Positions 7,701-36,650 of a DNA stretch of 64,000 nt are shown piece after piece. The stretch's first letter is position 1. Every line of letters begins with the position of its first letter. This stretch comes from Dehalococcoidia bacterium. GTDB lineage: Bacteria > Chloroflexota > Dehalococcoidia > GIF9 > AB-539-J10. The DNA is taken from the NCBI GenBank assembly GCA_030602785.1, contig JAUVZB010000003.1, forward strand, positions 46,295 to 110,294. Reading direction: 5' to 3'. A program made the position numbers and the translations under genes. Under the pieces are notes generated by a model. The model had not been told where the DNA came from, made no database searches, and saw nothing but the letters and a program-made list of their open reading frames with translations.

Positions 7701-9908
7701 CTACCTGTCGCGTCCAGAGAAACGCCTGGGACCACCTTGCGAGCGGGGAGGTCGCTCACGTGACTGCTCGGGCGAGCGATGAGGTCTCGCCGAGCCCCCT
7801 CCTCCTATCTGTCCAGGCTCAGAGTCCTCCCGCGCCCCGGGTAGGGCTGCCCTGCGGGACAGGTTGATCCGCCCCAGGCTGTCAATCTCAATGACCTTGA
7901 CGGTCACCTCGTCGCCCAGGTCCACTTCGTCCCTGACAGTAGGAACCCTGTGGTCCGCGAGTTCGCTGATGTGTACGAGACCTTCCTTCCCGGGAAGAAT
8001 CTCAACCATAGCTCCAAAGTCAAAAACACGAGTCACCTTCCCCGTGAATATGTCGCCGAGCTTCGCCTCACGGGTCAGGTCTCCAACCATCTTGATGGCA
8101 CGCTGTGTGCTTTCTTCATTCGAAGAGCCGATCATGACCCTGCCGTCATTCTTCACGTCTATGGTGGCCTTCGTTTCCTCGATAATGGCGCGGATGTTGC
8201 GGCCACCCGGCCCGATGAGCGCCCCAATCTTCTCTACGTCAATCCTGAGTTCAATAACCCGCGGAGCAAATGGACTCAGTTCCGGTCTGCTCGCGCTGAT
8301 TGTCTCGGCCATCTTGCTCAGAATCGACAGCCGCGCCCCACGTGCCTGGGCAAGCGCCTCGCCGAGGATGCCCGGGTCAATACCCTGTAGCTTGATGTCG
8401 AGCTGCAGCGCAGTAATGCCTTCAGCCGTCCCCGCAACCTTGAAGTCCATATCGCCGAGGGCATCTTCCATACCCTCTATGTCCGTCAGAATGACGCGGC
8501 CTCCATCCTCTCCACTGATTACGCCCATGGCTATACCCGCCACCGGAGCCTTTATGGGCACACCGGCATCCATCAGGGAAAGAGTCGAGCCGCACACGCT
8601 CGCCATCGAGGAACTGCCATTCGAACTGAGTATCTCAGACACGAGTCGCACCGTATACGGGAACTCCTCCTCCGAAGGCAGAACAGGCGAAATAGCCTTT
8701 TCCACAAGCGCACCGTGCCCGATCTCCCTGCGACCAGGCATGCGCAGCCGCTTCACCTCCCCGGTGGAGAACGGAGGGAAGTTGTAGTGGTGCATGAACC
8801 GCTTGGTATCAGCGAGTCCGAGGCCATCCAGCAATTGCTCCTGTCTCTCAGACCCCAGGGTCGTTATGGTAAGAGCCTGTGTCTGACCTCGCGTGAACAG
8901 GCCGGAACCGTGTACGCACGGTAGCAAGCCAACTTCGGTCGTGATAGGTCGAATCTCATCGTATCTGCGGCCATCAACATGCTGCTGAGTGCGCAGTATG
9001 TGCTCACGAACGTGCTTCCTGAGCTCGGACTGATACACGTAGACGACTTCGTCCTCGGGATAGGTTTCCGCCCATTTACTCAGCACCTGCGCCTTCAGCG
9101 CCTCCAGGGCATCGGACCTGCTCGCCTTGCCGGTCTGCTCAAGCGCACCCGAGAGCCTCTCCTTGAGTAGAGCTGCAACATCAGCCACGAGGTCCTCAGC
9201 CACCTCACGAGTAGAGACAGCGGCCTTCTCCACGCCGCACGCGGCCGTCATTTCATCCTGAAGGCCGATAATCTCGATATTGGCCTGGTGTCCGAACTGT
9301 ATCGCCTGCAGCACGATCTCTTCGCTGACCTCGCTCGCGCCAGCCTCCACCATGACAACCGCATCGCGGGTGCTCCCCACGACGATATTGAGAAGGCTTT
9401 CAGGGACAAGGGCCATGCTCGGGTTGAGCACCAGCTCGCCATCGACATAGCCGACGTGTACGGCAGAAACCGGGCCCGCAAAAGGAATATGCGACATGGA
9501 GAGCGCAGCGGACGCTCCGATGAGAGCACAGGTGTCGGGATTGTTCTCCTTGTCCGCAGACAGCACCGTTGCAACGACCTGAGTCTCCCTGCCAAAACGC
9601 TTGGACAGGAGAGGCCTCAGGCAGCGGTCAACGACGCGACAGGTGAGTGTTGCGTCCTCAGTGGGTCGCCCCTCACGCCTGATGAAACTCCCGGGAATCT
9701 TGCCCGCAGCATAGAGTTTCTCCTCGTAGTCCACCGTCAAAGGAACGAAGTCCATCCCTCCGACGGCCTCTGAGGCAGCGCAGACGGTAACGAGAACAAT
9801 GGAATCACCGTAGCGGACCAGCACGGACGCATCTGCCTGTTGGGCAAGCCGGCCCGTTTCGAGACTGAGTGGGCGCCCGGCGACCAAGCGCTGTACCTGT
9901 TGTAACAT
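7701..9908 (-). CDS. pnp: polyribonucleotide nucleotidyltransferase (PNPase)
   Basis: 3'-to-5' phosphorolytic exoribonuclease and degradosome core enzyme. The 735-residue protein has two RNase PH domains, with FIRREGRPTEDATLTCR in the first. A KH domain follows at about residues 555-615 (IGPGGRNIRAI) and an S1 domain at about 620-690 (VTRVFDFGAMVEI). The last ~40 residues form an Arg/Gly/Ser-rich disordered tail that probably adds RNA affinity. Its GAGGAGG ribosome site lies inside the 3' end of rpsO, 2 bp upstream, so the two are translationally linked as in many bacteria. Confidence 0.97.
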   Translation of the reverse strand: MLQQVQRLVAGRPLSLETGRLAQQADASVLVRYGDSIVLVTVCAASEAVGGMDFVPLTVDYEEKLYAAGKIPGSFIRREGRPTEDATLTCRVVDRCLRPLLSKRFGRETQVVATVLSADKENNPDTCALIGASAALSMSHIPFAGPVSAVHVGYVDGELVLNPSMALVPESLLNIVVGSTRDAVVMVEAGASEVSEEIVLQAIQFGHQANIEIIGLQDEMTAACGVEKAAVSTREVAEDLVADVAALLKERLSGALEQTGKASRSDALEALKAQVLSKWAETYPEDEVVYVYQSELRKHVREHILRTQQHVDGRRYDEIRPITTEVGLLPCVHGSGLFTRGQTQALTITTLGSERQEQLLDGLGLADTKRFMHHYNFPPFSTGEVKRLRMPGRREIGHGALVEKAISPVLPSEEEFPYTVRLVSEILSSNGSSSMASVCGSTLSLMDAGVPIKAPVAGIAMGVISGEDGGRVILTDIEGMEDALGDMDFKVAGTAEGITALQLDIKLQGIDPGILGEALAQARGARLSILSKMAETISASRPELSPFAPRVIELRIDVEKIGALIGPGGRNIRAIIEETKATIDVKNDGRVMIGSSNEESTQRAIKMVGDLTREAKLGDIFTGKVTRVFDFGAMVEILPGKEGLVHISELADHRVPTVRDEVDLGDEVTVKVIEIDSLGRINLSRRAALPGAREDSEPGQIGGGGSARPHRSPEQSRERPPRSQGGPRRFSGRDR

Positions 9909-9910
9909 CC

Positions 9911-10180
9911 CTACCTCCTCAAGCCCAGCCTGCCAACCAGAGAGCGGTACCGCTCGCTGTCAATCCTGTCGAGATACGACAGCAACCGGCGACGTCGACC
10001 AGCCAGTCTCAGAAGAGCTCGCCGGGTATTGTGGTCATGCTTGTTTGCTTCCAGATGTGCGGTCAGGGCTTTGATTCTCTGCGACAGGATTGCCACCTGT
10101 ACGTCAACAGAGCCCGTATCGCCGTCCTTCAGCGCATACTGATTGATAAGTTCTTTCTTCTTGTTTTCCACCTGCGACAT
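9911..10180 (-). CDS. rpsO: 30S ribosomal protein S15
   Basis: Primary 16S rRNA-binding protein of the small subunit. The 89-residue length and the segments DTGSVDVQVAILSQRI, HDHNTRRALL and RRRRLLSYL are standard. It heads the rpsO-pnp-dapB-asd-dapA operon. The promoter is so close that the mRNA would have almost no 5' leader, and no Shine-Dalgarno is visible, so initiation is probably leaderless. Confidence 0.97.
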   Translation of the reverse strand: MSQVENKKKELINQYALKDGDTGSVDVQVAILSQRIKALTAHLEANKHDHNTRRALLRLAGRRRRLLSYLDRIDSERYRSLVGRLGLRR

Positions 10181-10188
10181 AATGGCCG

Positions 10189-10197
10189 ATTATAGCA
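10189..10197 (-). promoter_or_regulatory. extended -10 promoter of the rpsO operon
   Basis: On the minus strand TGC-TATAAT (10197-10189) is an extended -10 element with a consensus hexamer; no good -35 is present. Only 8 nt separate the -10 from the rpsO ATG, so the start site falls at or 1-2 nt before the AUG. Confidence 0.7.
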
Positions 10198-10211
10198 CAG
10201 GCCTACCTGCA

Positions 10212-10240
10212 TTGACCACACAGAGCCAGCCCACTATAAT
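10212..10240 (+). promoter_or_regulatory. promoter of the purine operon
   Basis: TTGACC (10212-10217), 17 bp, TATAAT (10235-10240). Predicted transcription start is near 10247, leaving an 11-12-nt leader that includes AAAGG. It is divergent from the rpsO promoter, 41 bp away. Confidence 0.75.
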
Positions 10241-10258
10241 CACATCCAAAGGCCCTTC

Positions 10259-11638
10259 ATGCACGAGAGCTGCGGCATCTTCGGTGTCTTCGCCCCCGGT
10301 CTGGACATAGCGCGACTAGTGTTCTTTGCGCTGTTCGCGCTACAGCACCGTGGGCAGGAATGCGCAGGCATCGCTGTCACCGATGGCGATGACCTGGAAG
10401 TCCGCGCCAACCCGGGCTTGGTCTCCCAAGTCTTCGATGAAGACGACCTGGCGGCACTTCGAGGATTCGCAGGCATCGGCCATACCTGCTATTCCACCAA
10501 CGGTTCCCGTCAGCCCGCGACTCCACAACCGATTGTGGAGCGCAGCGGCCCCTGGAGACTGGCAGTCTCGCACAATGGAAACATCACGAACTCGGCCGCC
10601 CTTCGACATGAACTCGAGGAGAGAGGACTGACCTTCCACTCCGACAGTGACGCGGAGGTAATCGCCAAGCTGATTATCGTGTCACGCGGTGCCACGTGGC
10701 AGGAGAAGTTGTCACACGCTGTGAAGCGTCTCCAGGGGGCCTACTCCATGGTGCTGCTGACTCCGGAGATGCTCATTGCCGCCCGCGACCCGATGGGGGT
10801 GCGACCGCTTTGTCTCGGCTCCCTGAATGGCGGCTGGGTCGTCGCCTCAGAGAGTTGTGCCCTGGACCACATAGGCGCGGACTATCACCGCGACATTCTC
10901 CCGGGCGAACTCCTCTTCCTGGAGTCCAACCAGTCATCCCTCGTCCAGCCGAGGAACGGCAGGCGCGCCTTCTGTGTCTTCGAGCATATCTACTTCGCCA
11001 GGCCGGACAGCACCATCGAGGGCCGCCTCGTCTACCAGGCCCGCCTGGCGATGGGAGCAAGGTTGGCACAGGAACACCCTGTGGATGCCGATATCATAGT
11101 CGGAGTACCCGATTCCGCCACGGCGGCAGCCATCGGCTACGCACATGCCGCTGGTATCCCCTATCGAGAAGGCCTCCTGAAGAACCGCTACGTCGGCCGG
11201 ACGTTTATCTCCCCGGACCAGCGACTGCGGGACCTTCGCGTGCAACTCAAGTTCAACCCTCTGGCCAGCCTCATCAAAGGCAAGCGTCTTGTCGTCGTGG
11301 ACGACAGCATAGTCCGAGGCACAACAACCCCCCACGTCGTGAGCCTGCTGCGGCAGGCGGGGGCGCGCGAAGTCCATCTCAGGATATGCGCCCCACCTCT
11401 CCGCCATCCATGTCCCCTCGGAGTTGACATGGCATCGGCGTGGGAACTGATAGCATCGAGAATGAGTGTGCCGGAAATCAGGGACTACGTCGGAGCCGAC
11501 TCACTCGGCTATTCGAGCCTTGACGGCCTCATCGAGTCAGTAGGGCTGCCTCGAGACCTCCTCTGCCTCGCTTGCTTCGACGGGGACTACCCTCTGCCGG
11601 TACAGATAGCGCTATCCGGACTTGCAGCCGAGAACTGA
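10259..11638 (+). CDS. purF: amidophosphoribosyltransferase
   Basis: First step of purine synthesis: glutamine plus PRPP gives phosphoribosylamine. The 459-residue protein starts MHESCGIFG, so Cys5 becomes the N-terminal glutaminase nucleophile after removal of a four-residue propeptide. The PRPP-binding loop VVVDDSIVRGTT is near residues 345-356. Cysteines at FCVFEHIYF, HPCPLGVD and LCLAC match the Bacillus-type enzyme that carries an Fe-S cluster. It is first of purF-purM-purH. Confidence 0.96.
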   Translation: MHESCGIFGVFAPGLDIARLVFFALFALQHRGQECAGIAVTDGDDLEVRANPGLVSQVFDEDDLAALRGFAGIGHTCYSTNGSRQPATPQPIVERSGPWRLAVSHNGNITNSAALRHELEERGLTFHSDSDAEVIAKLIIVSRGATWQEKLSHAVKRLQGAYSMVLLTPEMLIAARDPMGVRPLCLGSLNGGWVVASESCALDHIGADYHRDILPGELLFLESNQSSLVQPRNGRRAFCVFEHIYFARPDSTIEGRLVYQARLAMGARLAQEHPVDADIIVGVPDSATAAAIGYAHAAGIPYREGLLKNRYVGRTFISPDQRLRDLRVQLKFNPLASLIKGKRLVVVDDSIVRGTTTPHVVSLLRQAGAREVHLRICAPPLRHPCPLGVDMASAWELIASRMSVPEIRDYVGADSLGYSSLDGLIESVGLPRDLLCLACFDGDYPLPVQIALSGLAAEN

Positions 11639-11639
11639 C

Positions 11640-12677
11640 ATGAAGTCAAATCGAAAACGGAATCACCCGGCCCATTCCTACGCGACCGCAGGAGTCGACG
11701 TAGAGAACGCCGATTCGGTCAAGGCCCAAATTCAGCAGTCACTGGGCACGACGCTTGACGGCCGGACGCTGGGAGTCGGTTCTTTCGGCTCCCTGTTCCA
11801 CCTCAAGGACTACGAGGACCCCGTTCTCGTCTCCAGTTGTGACGGAGTAGGCACGAAGCTGAAGATCGCCGCGCTGCTCGGCCGAAACCAGAGTGTGGGA
11901 CATGACATTGTGAACCACTGCATCAACGACATCTTGTGCTCCGGCGCGATGCCTCTCTTCTTCCTCGACTACGTGGCAATGGACAGGTTGGACTCGACTC
12001 AGGTGGCAGACATCGTCTCCGGTCTTGCCGGAGCCTGCCGCGAGAACGGCGTCGCGCTCATAGGCGGCGAGACAGCGGAGATGCCCGGCTTCTACACGAA
12101 AGGGCTGTACGACCTCGTGGGGTTCCTCGTCGGGGTAGTGGAGCGCCGCAACGTGATTGACGGCCGCTCCATCGAGGTCGGCGACGTGCTTCTAGGTCTT
12201 CCATCCTCGGGCCTTCACACGAACGGCTACTCGCTCGCCCGCTCGGTATTCGACATCGACCGGGACCCCCGCCAGCTCGACAGGTATTTCCCAGAGCTGG
12301 GGCGGACACTGGGGGAGGAACTCCTGGAACCGCATCGCCCGTATCACAGGCTCCTCGGGCCCTCGCTTGGCAACATCAAGGGTCTGGCACACATAACCGG
12401 AGGAGGCTTCGTGGGTAACGTGCCGCGAGTCCTGCCCGCCGGGCTGGCAGCCCACATCGCCCGCGGCTCGTGGAAGGTTCCCCCCATATTCCAGCTCATA
12501 CAGAGTGTGGGGGGAGTTGACGCCGACGAGATGTACCGCGTGTTCAACATGGGCACAGGCATGGTCATCATCGCGTCCCGGGAGCAGGCAGCGCAACTGG
12601 CACAGGATATCCCGAATGCGTACACTATCGGCAGTATCGTTCGCCACAAGAGCGGCGAGCGAGTAATCCTGGACTGA
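11640..12677 (+). CDS. purM: phosphoribosylformylglycinamidine cyclo-ligase
   Basis: ATP-dependent closure of the imidazole ring to AIR. The 345-residue protein shows the PurM/ThiL-fold signatures SCDGVGTKLKIA, HDIVNHCINDIL, GGETAEMPGFY and AHITGGGFVGNVPR. I use the ATG at 11640, one base after the purF stop; the ORF-track start at 11622 would overlap purF by 17 bp. No strong ribosome site is seen, so coupling to purF translation is likely. Confidence 0.95.
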   Translation: MKSNRKRNHPAHSYATAGVDVENADSVKAQIQQSLGTTLDGRTLGVGSFGSLFHLKDYEDPVLVSSCDGVGTKLKIAALLGRNQSVGHDIVNHCINDILCSGAMPLFFLDYVAMDRLDSTQVADIVSGLAGACRENGVALIGGETAEMPGFYTKGLYDLVGFLVGVVERRNVIDGRSIEVGDVLLGLPSSGLHTNGYSLARSVFDIDRDPRQLDRYFPELGRTLGEELLEPHRPYHRLLGPSLGNIKGLAHITGGGFVGNVPRVLPAGLAAHIARGSWKVPPIFQLIQSVGGVDADEMYRVFNMGTGMVIIASREQAAQLAQDIPNAYTIGSIVRHKSGERVILD

Positions 12678-12687
12678 GGGAGGAAGA

Positions 12688-14211
12688 ATGCGGGCCATTC
12701 TCAGCGTTTCAAACAAGACAGGGGTGACCGATTTCGCACGGGGCCTCCGCGAGATTGATGTCGCACTGTACAGTACGGGCGGCACGAAGAAAGCGATTGC
12801 TGAGGCAGGGGTGGAGGTATCGAGTATCTCGGAGCTCACCGGCTTCCCGGAGATACTTGATGGCCGGGTCAAGACGCTCCACCCGGCGGTGCACGGAGGC
12901 ATACTCGCCCGCCGCGACGTGCCAGACCACATGGCGGCCCTGGAGAAGACCGGCATCGCAACAATCGATCTGGTGGTCGTCAACCTCTATCCGTTCCTCG
13001 AAACAGTTACGCGCAGCGGCGTCACGTTGGAGGAAGCCATCGAGAACATCGACATCGGCGGACCCACGATGATTCGTTCCGCCGCAAAGAACTGTGACTC
13101 CGTCATCATTGTCGTGGACCCCGAGGACTATGGTTGGGTTCTTCAGCAACTGAAAGATGGACAACTGGGCGCCGAGAGCCGTAGGAAGCTTGCCCAGAAG
13201 GCATTCCAACACACTGCGTCCTACGACACCGCCATCGCGCAATACCTCTCCGAAGAGACGTTCCCGGAGCACATGAGCATCGCGCTCGAGAAGGCATACG
13301 GTCTGCGCTACGGGGAGAACCCCCGGCAGCAAGCCTGCTTCTACACTGCTGTGGACGTGAAGGCGCGGGACAAGGGTCTCGGAGCCCTGGTCCCTCTTAG
13401 CGGCCCTGAGGTGTCCTTCAATAACCTGCTCGACTTCGACTCCGCCCTGGCCACCCTTGCGGCGTTCTCACAGCCGACCGTGGCCGTGTTGAAGCACACC
13501 AACCCTTGCGGATTGGCGAGCAGGGAATCCCTGGCGGAATCGTACCGCCTGGCCCTTTCGGGCGACCCTGTTGCGGCATTCGGGGGCGTGGTGGCAAGCA
13601 ACAGACCAATAGACATGGAGACGGCAGAAGAGATAAACAAGATGCATTTCGATGCCGTAATCGCGCCCGATTTCTCGACCGAGGCCATGGCTCTGCTCTC
13701 CCAGAAGAAGAGCCTGCGGCTCGTCAAGGCGCCATTTCCCGAGGCGGAGGACGAACAGCTGGAGTTCCGGCACGTACGAGGTGGCTTTCTCGTCCAGAGC
13801 CGGGACTTCGTGAGTGAAGAGGAGTTGACGCCGAAGACCGCCTCGAAACGAGCGCCCAGCTCTGCCGAACTCGAAGATCTGCGCTTCGCGTGGAGAGCCG
13901 TCAAGGCAGTCAAATCCAATGCAATAGTACTCGCGAAGGACTCTGTGCTCGTCGGCATGGGAGCAGGCCAGCCGTCCCGTGTCGAGGCGGTAGCCATCGC
14001 TCTCAAGAGAGCAGGGGACAAGGCCTCCGGTGCGGTTCTCGCAAGCGACGCCTTCTTCCCGTTCGCAGATGGCGCCGAACTGGCCCTCGAGGCCGGAGTC
14101 ACCGCAATCATCGAGCCGGGCGGCTCCGTCAGAGACAACGAGGTCGTGGAAACTGTCGACAGCCACGGCGCCACAATGGTCTTCACCGGCATGAGGCACT
14201 TCAGACACTGA
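12688..14211 (+). CDS. purH: bifunctional AICAR formyltransferase/IMP cyclohydrolase
   Basis: Performs the last two steps to IMP. The N-terminal cyclohydrolase domain (about 1-190) has SVSNKTG, LYSTGGT, SELTGFPEILDGRVKTLHP and GGPTMIRSAAKN; the C-terminal transformylase domain has RYGENPRQ, KHTNPCG and DFDSALATL. The 507-residue length is typical. GGGAGGAAG precedes the ATG, 10 bp after purM. IMP made here is the substrate of PurA encoded 8 kb upstream. Confidence 0.96.
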   Translation: MRAILSVSNKTGVTDFARGLREIDVALYSTGGTKKAIAEAGVEVSSISELTGFPEILDGRVKTLHPAVHGGILARRDVPDHMAALEKTGIATIDLVVVNLYPFLETVTRSGVTLEEAIENIDIGGPTMIRSAAKNCDSVIIVVDPEDYGWVLQQLKDGQLGAESRRKLAQKAFQHTASYDTAIAQYLSEETFPEHMSIALEKAYGLRYGENPRQQACFYTAVDVKARDKGLGALVPLSGPEVSFNNLLDFDSALATLAAFSQPTVAVLKHTNPCGLASRESLAESYRLALSGDPVAAFGGVVASNRPIDMETAEEINKMHFDAVIAPDFSTEAMALLSQKKSLRLVKAPFPEAEDEQLEFRHVRGGFLVQSRDFVSEEELTPKTASKRAPSSAELEDLRFAWRAVKAVKSNAIVLAKDSVLVGMGAGQPSRVEAVAIALKRAGDKASGAVLASDAFFPFADGAELALEAGVTAIIEPGGSVRDNEVVETVDSHGATMVFTGMRHFRH

Positions 14212-14247
14212 TTCCTGGAACGTCCAACGGAGGCGCAGCGCAGACGC

Positions 14248-15774
14248 ATGGCAAGAGCCGTACTTGCAGTCGACCTACTTAGAGGATTCCTCGAGGAAGG
14301 ACACCCTCTGTTCTGCGGTGCCCGTGCGCGCAGAATCATCCCTCACGTTCAGGACATGTTCACAGCTGAGCGTGAGCGCGGCTCGCATATCATCTGTGCC
14401 TGCGACAGACACACACCAGATGATCCAGAGTTCAAGCAGTTCCCCCCCCACTGCATTGATGGAACTGAAGAGGCCGAAATCGTGCAGGAACTCGCGGATT
14501 ACCCTGAGACAACGATAGCAAAGCAGCATTTCAGTGCATTCTCCGGCACCAATCTGGACCAGCTGTTGCAGCAGTTGCACGTAGACACACTGGTTGTGTG
14601 TGGCGTGTGCACGGACATATGCGTGCTGCACACGGTAGCGGACGCCAGGGACCGGGGCTACACAGTGGAGGTCCCCGGCAATTGCGTCGCATCTTTCGAT
14701 GAGAAGAACCATGCTTTCGCACTGGGGCACATGGAGAATGTCCTTGGAGTCACTATCACGTCCGAAAGCGTCCGGCCGCCTACGCCAGAGTGGAACATCC
14801 CTGACAGCTGGCTCAAGGGCGACACGGCCGACGTGTACTTCCTCCGTACAGTGGAGATACTGAAGAGAGAGGGCATCAACCCTGTCACAACCATGGAGAT
14901 ATTCCCACAGCGTGACGGGATTCTGTGCGGAATCGAAGAAGTGAAGGCATTGCTGAGACACGTGCTGCCCGACAAGGGCGCTGAAGTCTGGGCGCTGGAA
15001 GAAGGCCAGCCGATTGCCAAGAAGGAGGTAGCTCTCCGAATCACCGCACCATACCAGAGTTTCGGCGCATACGAGACATGCTACCTGGGGATTCTCGCTC
15101 ACTGCAGCGGGTGGGCAAGTGCTGCGAGAGAGTGCATTCAGGCCGCTAGAGGTATACCGGTACTGAGCTTCGGAGCACGCCACGTGCATCCTTCTACTGT
15201 GGCTGTGATGGAGTACTCTGCAGCCGTCGGCGGATGCAGCGGCTGTGCGACCACTGCGGGAGCCCGTCTCGCAGGCAAGGACCCCGTGGGAACCATCCCT
15301 CACGCACTCATCATAATCATGGGGTCCACGGCAGCAGCGACCCTGGCATTCGACAGGGCGATGAATCCGGAGTTGCCACGAATCGCGCTCGTTGACACGT
15401 TTGAAGATGAAGTGCGTGAGAGCGTGGCAGTAGCGAAGGCGATGGAAGGCCGACTCTTCGGAGTAAGACTCGACACACCGTCGGAAAGGGGCAGGGTGAC
15501 TGCAGACCTCGTCAAGGAGGTCAGGGCGTGGCTCGACCTCGAGGGATTCAAGGACATTCGGATTGCCGTGAGCGGAGGACTGGACCCTGACAGAATCCGC
15601 TACTTCCTCGAAGCCGGATCTCCCGTCGACCTCTTTGCCGTTGGAAGCTATGTCAGCGACGCTCGGCCGCTGGACTTCACCGCAGACCTGCATGAAGTCG
15701 ATGGCAGACCCATTGCCAAGCGAGGCAGGATGCCCGGCGTCACCCCCAGCCCCAAACTCAGGCGTATCCTCTAG
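14248..15774 (+). CDS. nicotinamidase-nicotinate phosphoribosyltransferase fusion
   Basis: A 508-residue two-domain protein. Residues 1-185 are an isochorismatase-fold nicotinamidase. The catalytic triad is D9, K92 (TIAKQHFSAF) and C125 (CTDICV), with metal ligands D53, H55 and H68 (FPPHCIDGT). Residues from about 190 to the end are a nicotinate phosphoribosyltransferase, with SFGARHVHPS, DTFEDEVRES, VRLDTPSERG and AVSGGLDPDRI. The two activities are consecutive in NAD salvage: nicotinamide to nicotinate to nicotinate mononucleotide. The gene follows purH by 36 bp and is read with the purine genes, whose PRPP it shares. Both active sites look intact. Confidence 0.88.
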   Translation: MARAVLAVDLLRGFLEEGHPLFCGARARRIIPHVQDMFTAERERGSHIICACDRHTPDDPEFKQFPPHCIDGTEEAEIVQELADYPETTIAKQHFSAFSGTNLDQLLQQLHVDTLVVCGVCTDICVLHTVADARDRGYTVEVPGNCVASFDEKNHAFALGHMENVLGVTITSESVRPPTPEWNIPDSWLKGDTADVYFLRTVEILKREGINPVTTMEIFPQRDGILCGIEEVKALLRHVLPDKGAEVWALEEGQPIAKKEVALRITAPYQSFGAYETCYLGILAHCSGWASAARECIQAARGIPVLSFGARHVHPSTVAVMEYSAAVGGCSGCATTAGARLAGKDPVGTIPHALIIIMGSTAAATLAFDRAMNPELPRIALVDTFEDEVRESVAVAKAMEGRLFGVRLDTPSERGRVTADLVKEVRAWLDLEGFKDIRIAVSGGLDPDRIRYFLEAGSPVDLFAVGSYVSDARPLDFTADLHEVDGRPIAKRGRMPGVTPSPKLRRIL

Positions 15775-16092
15775 ACACAGTGTGCAACAGCCGACACGAG
15801 CGTCCACAGACATCGCTGGCTGCCCGACATCGAGCCACCCATCCCACGGGAACCAGCGTCGCTCCAGAGAGAGAATGATGGGTCGCGTCCAGGAGGCAGG
15901 ACTTCCCCTTCTTCGGCTTCATGGCAGACATGCTCCGGCGTGGATGCTCCGAGAGCGGCCGGCCTCGCACCACAAATCACTTCAGCCCTCGTACTCGACT
16001 TCGGCTCTGGCAGGATGCTACAGCGCCTGGCCGAGAGGACAATGTCACGCGCAACGGGCGGGAGTCGGCGATTCCTGAGGTAGTGTTGTCAA
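15775..16092. other. 318-bp intergenic stretch without a supported gene
   Basis: Small ORFs on both strands overlap one another and none has a recognisable sequence. I see no strong promoter or hairpin apart from a GAGGTAG ribosome site serving the following CvpA gene. Confidence 0.5.
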
Positions 16093-16566
16093 ATGACATG
16101 GCTTGATGTCGCGGTGACGGTCACCATATGCCTTCTTGCCGCATTCGGGTTCTGGAAGGGCATAGTCAGGGCAATCATCGGCATTGCCGGGTTGCTTGGG
16201 GCGATACTACTTGCGGGCTCGCTCCATCGGCAGGTGGCTGCAATGCTGTGGCCTTCCGGAGGGACATGGTCTCTGATTGCGGCCTACGCCGTCATACTGA
16301 TTGCGGCGCTCATTATGGCAGCGCTTCTCGCAGCGCTGCTGTCGCATCTCATCCATATGACGGCGCTCGGGATAGTCGACCGCATCGTCGGCCTTGCAAC
16401 GGGAGCAATCGTCGCCGCCCTTGGATGGGCGCTGCTTCTGGCGCTACTGGTGCCGCTGAGTACCGGTCTCGCAGACCTCGTATCACAGTCACCAGTCGTT
16501 CGACTGCTGCTCGACTGGAGTCTGACGGTCAACTGCCTGCCTGCTGACCCCGGACACGCAATGTAG
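16093..16566 (+). CDS. CvpA family membrane protein
   Basis: A 157-residue protein with about four membrane segments. The start MTWLDVAVTVTICLLAAFGFWKGIVR is characteristic of the CvpA/colicin V production family, and IHMTALGIVDRIVGLATGAI matches the family's conserved loop. The molecular role is uncertain; members are linked to envelope homeostasis. It stands alone on the plus strand and converges on the thioredoxin gene 47 bp away. Confidence 0.85.
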   Translation: MTWLDVAVTVTICLLAAFGFWKGIVRAIIGIAGLLGAILLAGSLHRQVAAMLWPSGGTWSLIAAYAVILIAALIMAALLAALLSHLIHMTALGIVDRIVGLATGAIVAALGWALLLALLVPLSTGLADLVSQSPVVRLLLDWSLTVNCLPADPGHAM

Positions 16567-16613
16567 GTCGGGCAGACCGGGGTCGGAGAGGGACAGCCTG
16601 CTGCCGGCAGCCG

Positions 16614-16946
16614 CTACTGCTGCTCGCCGAGCGCAGCGTCCAGTATCTTCTTGAGTTCTTTCTTCGGCTTAAGGCCAACCAATTGCTGCACAGGTTCCCC
16701 GTTCTTGAAGATGAGCATGGTTGGAATTGCAGCAATGCCGTACTTCGCCGCTATCATGCTGTTGTCCTCAACATTGACCTTGGCGAAGCCCACTTTGCCA
16801 TCGTATTCCTTCGCAAGCTCTTCGATTACCGGGGCCGCAGCGAGACAGGGAGCACACCATTGCGCCCAGAAATCTACGAGAACCGGAGTGTCCGACTGCA
16901 ACACGGCAGTCTGGAAACTCTCTTCACCGTCTATGGCCTGTACCAT
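16614..16946 (-). CDS. trxA: thioredoxin
   Basis: A 110-residue disulfide reductase with the thioredoxin fold. The active site is WCAPC instead of the usual WCGPC, which may shift the redox potential. Other hallmarks are VLVDFWAQ, the cis-proline segment AAIPTMLIFKNGE and the C-terminal LKKIL helix. The ORF track adds 20 residues, but AGGAGG lies before the ATG at 16944-16946, only 1 bp after the tatD stop, so it is translated with tatD. Confidence 0.94.
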   Translation of the reverse strand: MVQAIDGEESFQTAVLQSDTPVLVDFWAQWCAPCLAAAPVIEELAKEYDGKVGFAKVNVEDNSMIAAKYGIAAIPTMLIFKNGEPVQQLVGLKPKKELKKILDAALGEQQ

Positions 16947-36254: not shown

Positions 36255-36650
36255 GGGGCTGGTAGACTGGGTGGCTGCTCCGCGTCGAGAACGCGGGGAG
36301 GAAAGTCCGGGCTCCACCGAGCAGGGTGCTGGGTAACACCCAGGAGGGGTAACCCTACGGAAAGTGCCACAGAAACATACCGCTTGCCTCGGCAAGCAAG
36401 GGTGAAATGGCGAGGTAAGAGCTCACCGGCAGCCGGGAGACCGGCTGGACGGGCAAACCCCACCCGGAGCAAGACCAAATAGAGGGGCAGGGCCATAACC
36501 CCGTGACCTCGTGTCACAGGCAACTGGTCTGCAGTGCTCGGCTGAGGCCCCCGGGTTGGTTGCTTGACCTTGGTGGCAACATCAGGGCTAGATGGATGGC
36601 CACCACCCTCTCAGAGGGTACAGAACCCGGCTTATAGGTCTGCCAGCCCC
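36255..36650 (+). ncRNA. rnpB: RNase P RNA, bacterial class A
   Basis: The catalytic RNA of tRNA 5' processing, about 396 nt. The hallmark blocks appear in order: GAGGAAAGTCCGGGCTCC, GGGTGAAATGGCGAGGTAAG with GAGCTCACCG, GACGGGCAAACCC, AGATGGATGGCCACC and CAGAACCCGGCTTATAGGTC. P1 is formed by GGGGCTGGTAGAC at the 5' end and GTCTGCCAGCCCC at the 3' end, pairing over 13 bp with one G-U. ORFs predicted across this region are artefacts. Confidence 0.97.

Follow-up and report, generated by a model that had tools for sequence, protein, structure and literature searches.

Does the open reading frame that follows purH at this locus encode one protein for two consecutive steps of NAD salvage, and, if so, what would the joining of the two enzymes achieve? 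An earlier note on this DNA had claimed that a nicotinamidase (PncA) and a nicotinate phosphoribosyltransferase (PncB, NAPRTase) lie in one chain directly after purH, and on both counts our analysis agrees with it. Within the window, the whole 64,000-nt stretch of Dehalococcoidia DNA analysed here, the frame occupies positions 14248–15774 of the + strand, starts with ATG and runs for 508 codons with no internal stop, separated from purH on the same strand by 36 nt. Pfam places Isochorismatase at residues 4–173, QRPTase_N at 195–287 and QRPTase_C at 290–478, all above their gathering cut-offs. The features of the locus are listed in Table 1. From the sequence and its relatives, we put at about 0.9 the probability that the gene encodes a genuine bifunctional NAD-salvage enzyme, derived from the joining of pncA and pncB and forming the last tightly spaced gene of purF-purM-purH-pncAB.

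Table 1. Features of the purine–NAD salvage locus (window positions)
Feature	Position	Strand	Basis or remark
Promoter-like site TTGACC-17-TATAAT	10212..10240	+	Upstream of purF; consensus match only
purF (amidophosphoribosyltransferase)	10259..11638	+	GATase and Pribosyltran domains; first gene of probable operon
purM (AIR synthase)	11622..12677	+	PF00586, PF02769
purH (AICAR transformylase/IMP cyclohydrolase)	12688..14211	+	PF01808 E 9e-110, PF02142
Nicotinamidase (PncA) domain	14248..14760	+	Residues ~1–171; PF00857 4–173, E 2.1e-40
Linker between PncA and PncB halves	14761..14805	+	Residues 172–186; low pLDDT at 171–180
Archaeal-type NAPRTase (PncB) domain and stop codon	14806..15774	+	Residues ~187–508; NF006415, 2i14, Foldseek matches
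cvpA-like gene (Colicin_V)	16093..16566	+	PF02674 E 4e-16; 318 nt downstream; operon membership only putative

The C-terminal half scores 407.6 bits over residues 186–500 against the NCBIfam model PRK08662/NF006415, for which the curated equivalog cut-off is 243. Its identification as a quinolinate phosphoribosyltransferase (NadC) was rejected, TIGR00078 giving 57.2 bits, below the cut-off of 198.4. By sequence, the nearest solved NAPRTases are 2i14 (E 1.6e-69) and 1ytd, and for the N-terminal half the nearest solved nicotinamidases are 3s2s and 3o90. An AlphaFold2 model of the fused protein reached a mean pLDDT of 95.5 and a pTM of 0.79 with a 141-row alignment, 16 close homologues having given a pLDDT of 61. 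Foldseek searches with the two halves of this model returned 6a8l (TMt 0.88), 3o93, 3s2s and 3o90 for the N-terminal half, and 2i14 (E 5.9e-35) and 1ytd for the C-terminal half. The sole uncertain part of the model is the linker, residues 171–180, with a pLDDT of about 61. A 512-aa open frame also lies on the opposite strand (14275–15813, −); we rejected it as a gene, since it probably only mirrors the composition of the coding strand.

The earlier note had also held that both active sites are complete, and every residue that we examined is indeed present in the window protein. In the Streptococcus pneumoniae nicotinamidase SpNic, the catalytic triad is D9, K103 and C136, and the zinc ligands are D53, H55, E64 and H71 (PMC6271260). 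In alignment with SpNic (3o90), D9, K92 and C125 of the fused protein correspond to the Asp-Lys-Cys triad and D53, H55, E61 and H68 to the Asp-His-Glu-His metal site. All seven are invariant in 16 fused proteins. In the 141-row alignment, which includes fused and split relatives, D9, H55, H68, K92 and C125 are invariant among the rows covering each position, and D53 and E61 each differ in one row. The superfamily is catalytically diverse, and in NCBIfam this half weakly matches biuret amidohydrolase as well as YcaC-like hydrolases, so that another amide or cysteine-hydrolase substrate might be considered in place of nicotinamide. However, with nicotinamidases as its nearest solved relatives, the full triad and metal site retained, and the half fused to or adjoining a nicotinate-using enzyme across the class, we regard such a substrate as improbable.

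The NAPRTase half carries E276, R311, H312, H314, H352, R407-D409-T410, G443-G444 and G466-S467, which belong to the substrate- and PRPP-binding blocks, and the blocks FGARHVHP, RLDT, SGG and GS are conserved in it. Each of the residues examined is kept in at least 88% of the alignment rows that cover it. In a codon comparison with the nearest relative, dN and dS were 0.17 and 2.0 for one half and 0.11 and 1.57 for the other; as dN is far below dS, both halves are under purifying selection. These observations bear on the idea that one half is inactive and serves a merely structural or regulatory role. Such forms can exist, as the distant fused relative L166 has lost most of its NAPRTase active-site residues, but the intact sites, the selection on both halves and a genome holding no other copy of either enzyme leave this reading slightly less probable still than a change of substrate.

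L166 itself (125–1651; genome G466, Dehalococcoidia family f98) has an intact nicotinamidase site. Its NAPRTase half bears the changes H312N, H314Y, T349P, H352E, D383G, R407K, D409A, T410L, R414G, G444D, G466E and S467N. It is a possible candidate for a nicotinamidase with a pseudo-NAPRTase domain, and no second genome with a half degenerate in this way was found among 60 relatives.

The same domain order was sought in other genomes, with a frameshift or an assembly join in mind, either of which would refute the single chain. Full-length fused frames were present in 58 of the 393 Dehalococcoidia genomes sampled, spread over 19 family-level groups and including the genus, family and order of the window, and in all 67–68 distinct fused frames were collected. 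Where the best matches have named records, almost all of these are MAGs of Dehalococcoidia or Chloroflexota. An artefact might be suspected because in close relatives the two genes are neighbours, in some cases sharing a frame and separated by a single stop. Yet assemblies made independently, in many studies and from many genera, contain the same stop-free frame, and we rejected an origin in sequencing or assembly, the probability of which is close to nil.

Elsewhere in the class and phylum, pncA and pncB occur as neighbouring genes. In some of these split pairs, such as those of genomes G333 and G246, the two genes share a frame and one stop codon in the linker separates them; in others the frames differ. 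The match of G333 is a genome of 1.1 Mb in a single contig (L025; L105 is from CP070693.1). In the linker region of the split pairs lie a pncA stop and a pncB restart, often with a GGAG-like ribosome-binding site. Same-frame pairs with one or two linker stops, frequently TAG, were noted at nine loci (L025, L024, L026, L080, L095, L100, L104, L108 and L137). We take these to be split genes of the ordinary kind, in which translation restarts, with stop-codon read-through as a possible alternative.

In a tree built from 128 NAPRTase domains, seven fusion or fission changes are required to explain the fused state, and the starred branches force at least two; as the tree has no outgroup, these counts do not separate gain from loss of the fusion. 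Two fused copies labelled ‘Deltaproteobacteria’ (L090 and L096) fall inside the Dehalococcoidia in this tree and are probably mis-binned contigs. The existence of split relatives suggests that the covalent linkage of PncA to PncB is dispensable. The repeated switching between fused and split states suggests, in turn, that it is the joint production of the two steps which matters, and this is something that an operon also provides.

The place of the enzyme in NAD metabolism was assessed from the window's own genome (2.57 Mb, 95% complete, about 5% contamination). In answer to whether PncA or PncB occurs elsewhere, the fused protein is the only member of the isochorismatase family (PF00857) there, and the only PF01729 protein above the cut-off; it is the sole QRPTase/NAPRTase. 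The two best weak PF01729 matches were considered as a second PncB or NadC and rejected, being TrpC-like and ThiE-like by sequence. Searches of this 95% complete genome found neither a second pncA or pncB nor any NadA, NadC or NAPRTase/NAMPT of the PF04095 type; given its completeness and contamination, the absence of nadA and nadC is not fully certain. NadD and NadE are present. With that set of genes, the fused enzyme is probably the only recognisable entry to NAD in this species, from nicotinamide or nicotinate. Of the six other genomes of the genus searched, NadA was seen in four, G001, G002, G003 and G005 (in one only as a fragment), and not in G004 or G006; it is also missing in G000, a pattern which suggests that de novo NAD synthesis was lost recently.

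Co-transcription of purF, purM and purH with the fused gene is plausible in the window: the gap between purH and the fused gene is short, at 36 nt, and no terminator-like site was found on the + strand within 9800–16700, and hence none between purF and the fused gene. Searches near the operon gave no Rfam match or riboswitch, and no regulatory element was found; that expression would follow PRPP demand in purine synthesis, as the earlier note proposed, is thus a hypothesis. Elsewhere in the window, at 36259–36650 (+), lies an RNase P RNA of class A (293 bits). The purH context was scored over 67 distinct fused loci, of which nine could not be judged; among the remaining 58, 55 have purH upstream and on the same strand, and three have no purH within 2.5 kb. 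The distance from purH to the fusion ranges from 13 nt to 3 kb across these loci, and because it reaches the upper value in other genera, co-transcription with purH is not general. Nor is the link to purH tied to the fusion, since stand-alone pncB also follows purH (9 of 17 loci, at 50–120 nt, several of them from family f5).

Outside the window's family, many Dehalococcoidia encode, between purH and pncAB, an unannotated protein of ~380 aa with an IHHGHAQ (HIT/GalT-like) motif (L105:2860–4005; also L025, L042, L071 and L075). It has no sequence match in Pfam, NCBIfam or the PDB.

Thus, we favour a bifunctional salvage enzyme that would work as follows. The N-terminal nicotinamidase would use a zinc-assisted thioester mechanism involving Asp9, Lys92 and Cys125 to hydrolyse nicotinamide, releasing nicotinate and ammonia. 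From this nicotinate and PRPP, the C-terminal type II phosphoribosyltransferase would then form nicotinate mononucleotide, to be converted to NAD by NadD and NadE. The fusion probably originated when the linker stop and restart between adjacent operonic pncA and pncB genes were lost, a change made or undone several times in the Dehalococcoidia. In the window's genus, pncAB would be read out as the last tight gene of purF-purM-purH-pncAB. The fusion probably acts mainly by equalising expression and assembly of the two steps.

A further possibility, the first part of which the earlier note raised, is that nicotinate passes directly from the PncA site to the NAPRTase site, and that the fusion has been kept for this reason. 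In its favour, the two activities follow one another in the pathway and the 19 family-level groups share the architecture. Against this, the switches between fused and split states are repeated, many relatives make separate proteins, and no tunnel is evident in the data. The predicted structure is neutral on the point, neither for nor against, as the low confidence of the linker and the pTM of 0.79 mean that the model does not fix the domain arrangement and, with it, how the two sites lie with respect to each other. On balance, we think channelling unlikely. A fuller proposal, in which a channelling PncA–PncB bienzyme is essential to the species as its only entry to NAD and sits in the purine operon for shared control of NAD and purine synthesis through PRPP, is a shade more doubtful again.

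No description of a PncA–PncB fusion was found in the open-access literature, a scope that does not disprove the existence of one. Within that scope the architecture appears to be new; both component enzymes are already well known, and their fusion is in that sense an ordinary one. As a ‘Rosetta stone’, it ties PncA directly to the archaeal-type NAPRTase, and it supports how both families are annotated in Chloroflexota, in which the two are frequently encoded apart. The fused, in-frame-split, out-of-frame-split and purH-pncB forms make up a natural series on what fusion does for a two-step pathway. In lineages that lack de novo synthesis, reliance on nicotinamide or nicotinate from outside is likely to run through this one protein.

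Compared with known systems, the N-terminal half is 35–39% identical by fold alignment to the PncA enzymes of S. pneumoniae (SpNic, 3o90), Bacillus subtilis (5zn8/6a8l) and Streptococcus mutans (3s2s), with which it has the catalytic triad and zinc ligands in common. Whilst those enzymes stand alone, the chain of the window protein runs on into the NAPRTase. For the second half, fold alignment gives 42% identity to the archaeal-type NAPRTase of Pyrococcus furiosus (2i14) and 33% to that of Thermoplasma acidophilum (1ytd/1ytk), and the RH-H, RLDT and SGG blocks of 2i14 and 1ytd are kept. These are stand-alone proteins of 395–398 aa, whereas the sequence match ends at residues 326–329 of them and the fusion itself near position 330–340 of 2i14, without their C-terminal part, which in 1ytd is zinc-knuckle-like. 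That part is also missing in nearly all of the Chloroflexota relatives examined, fused or split, so its loss is not a result of fusion; judged from these sequences, the extension does not define the bacterial NAPRTase group here. Closest in kind are the adjacent pncA-pncB pairs of other Dehalococcoidia and Chloroflexota, with the same enzymes in the same order at 50–69% identity, often after purH, but as two proteins. In the Dehalococcoides-like family f5, pncB alone follows purH.
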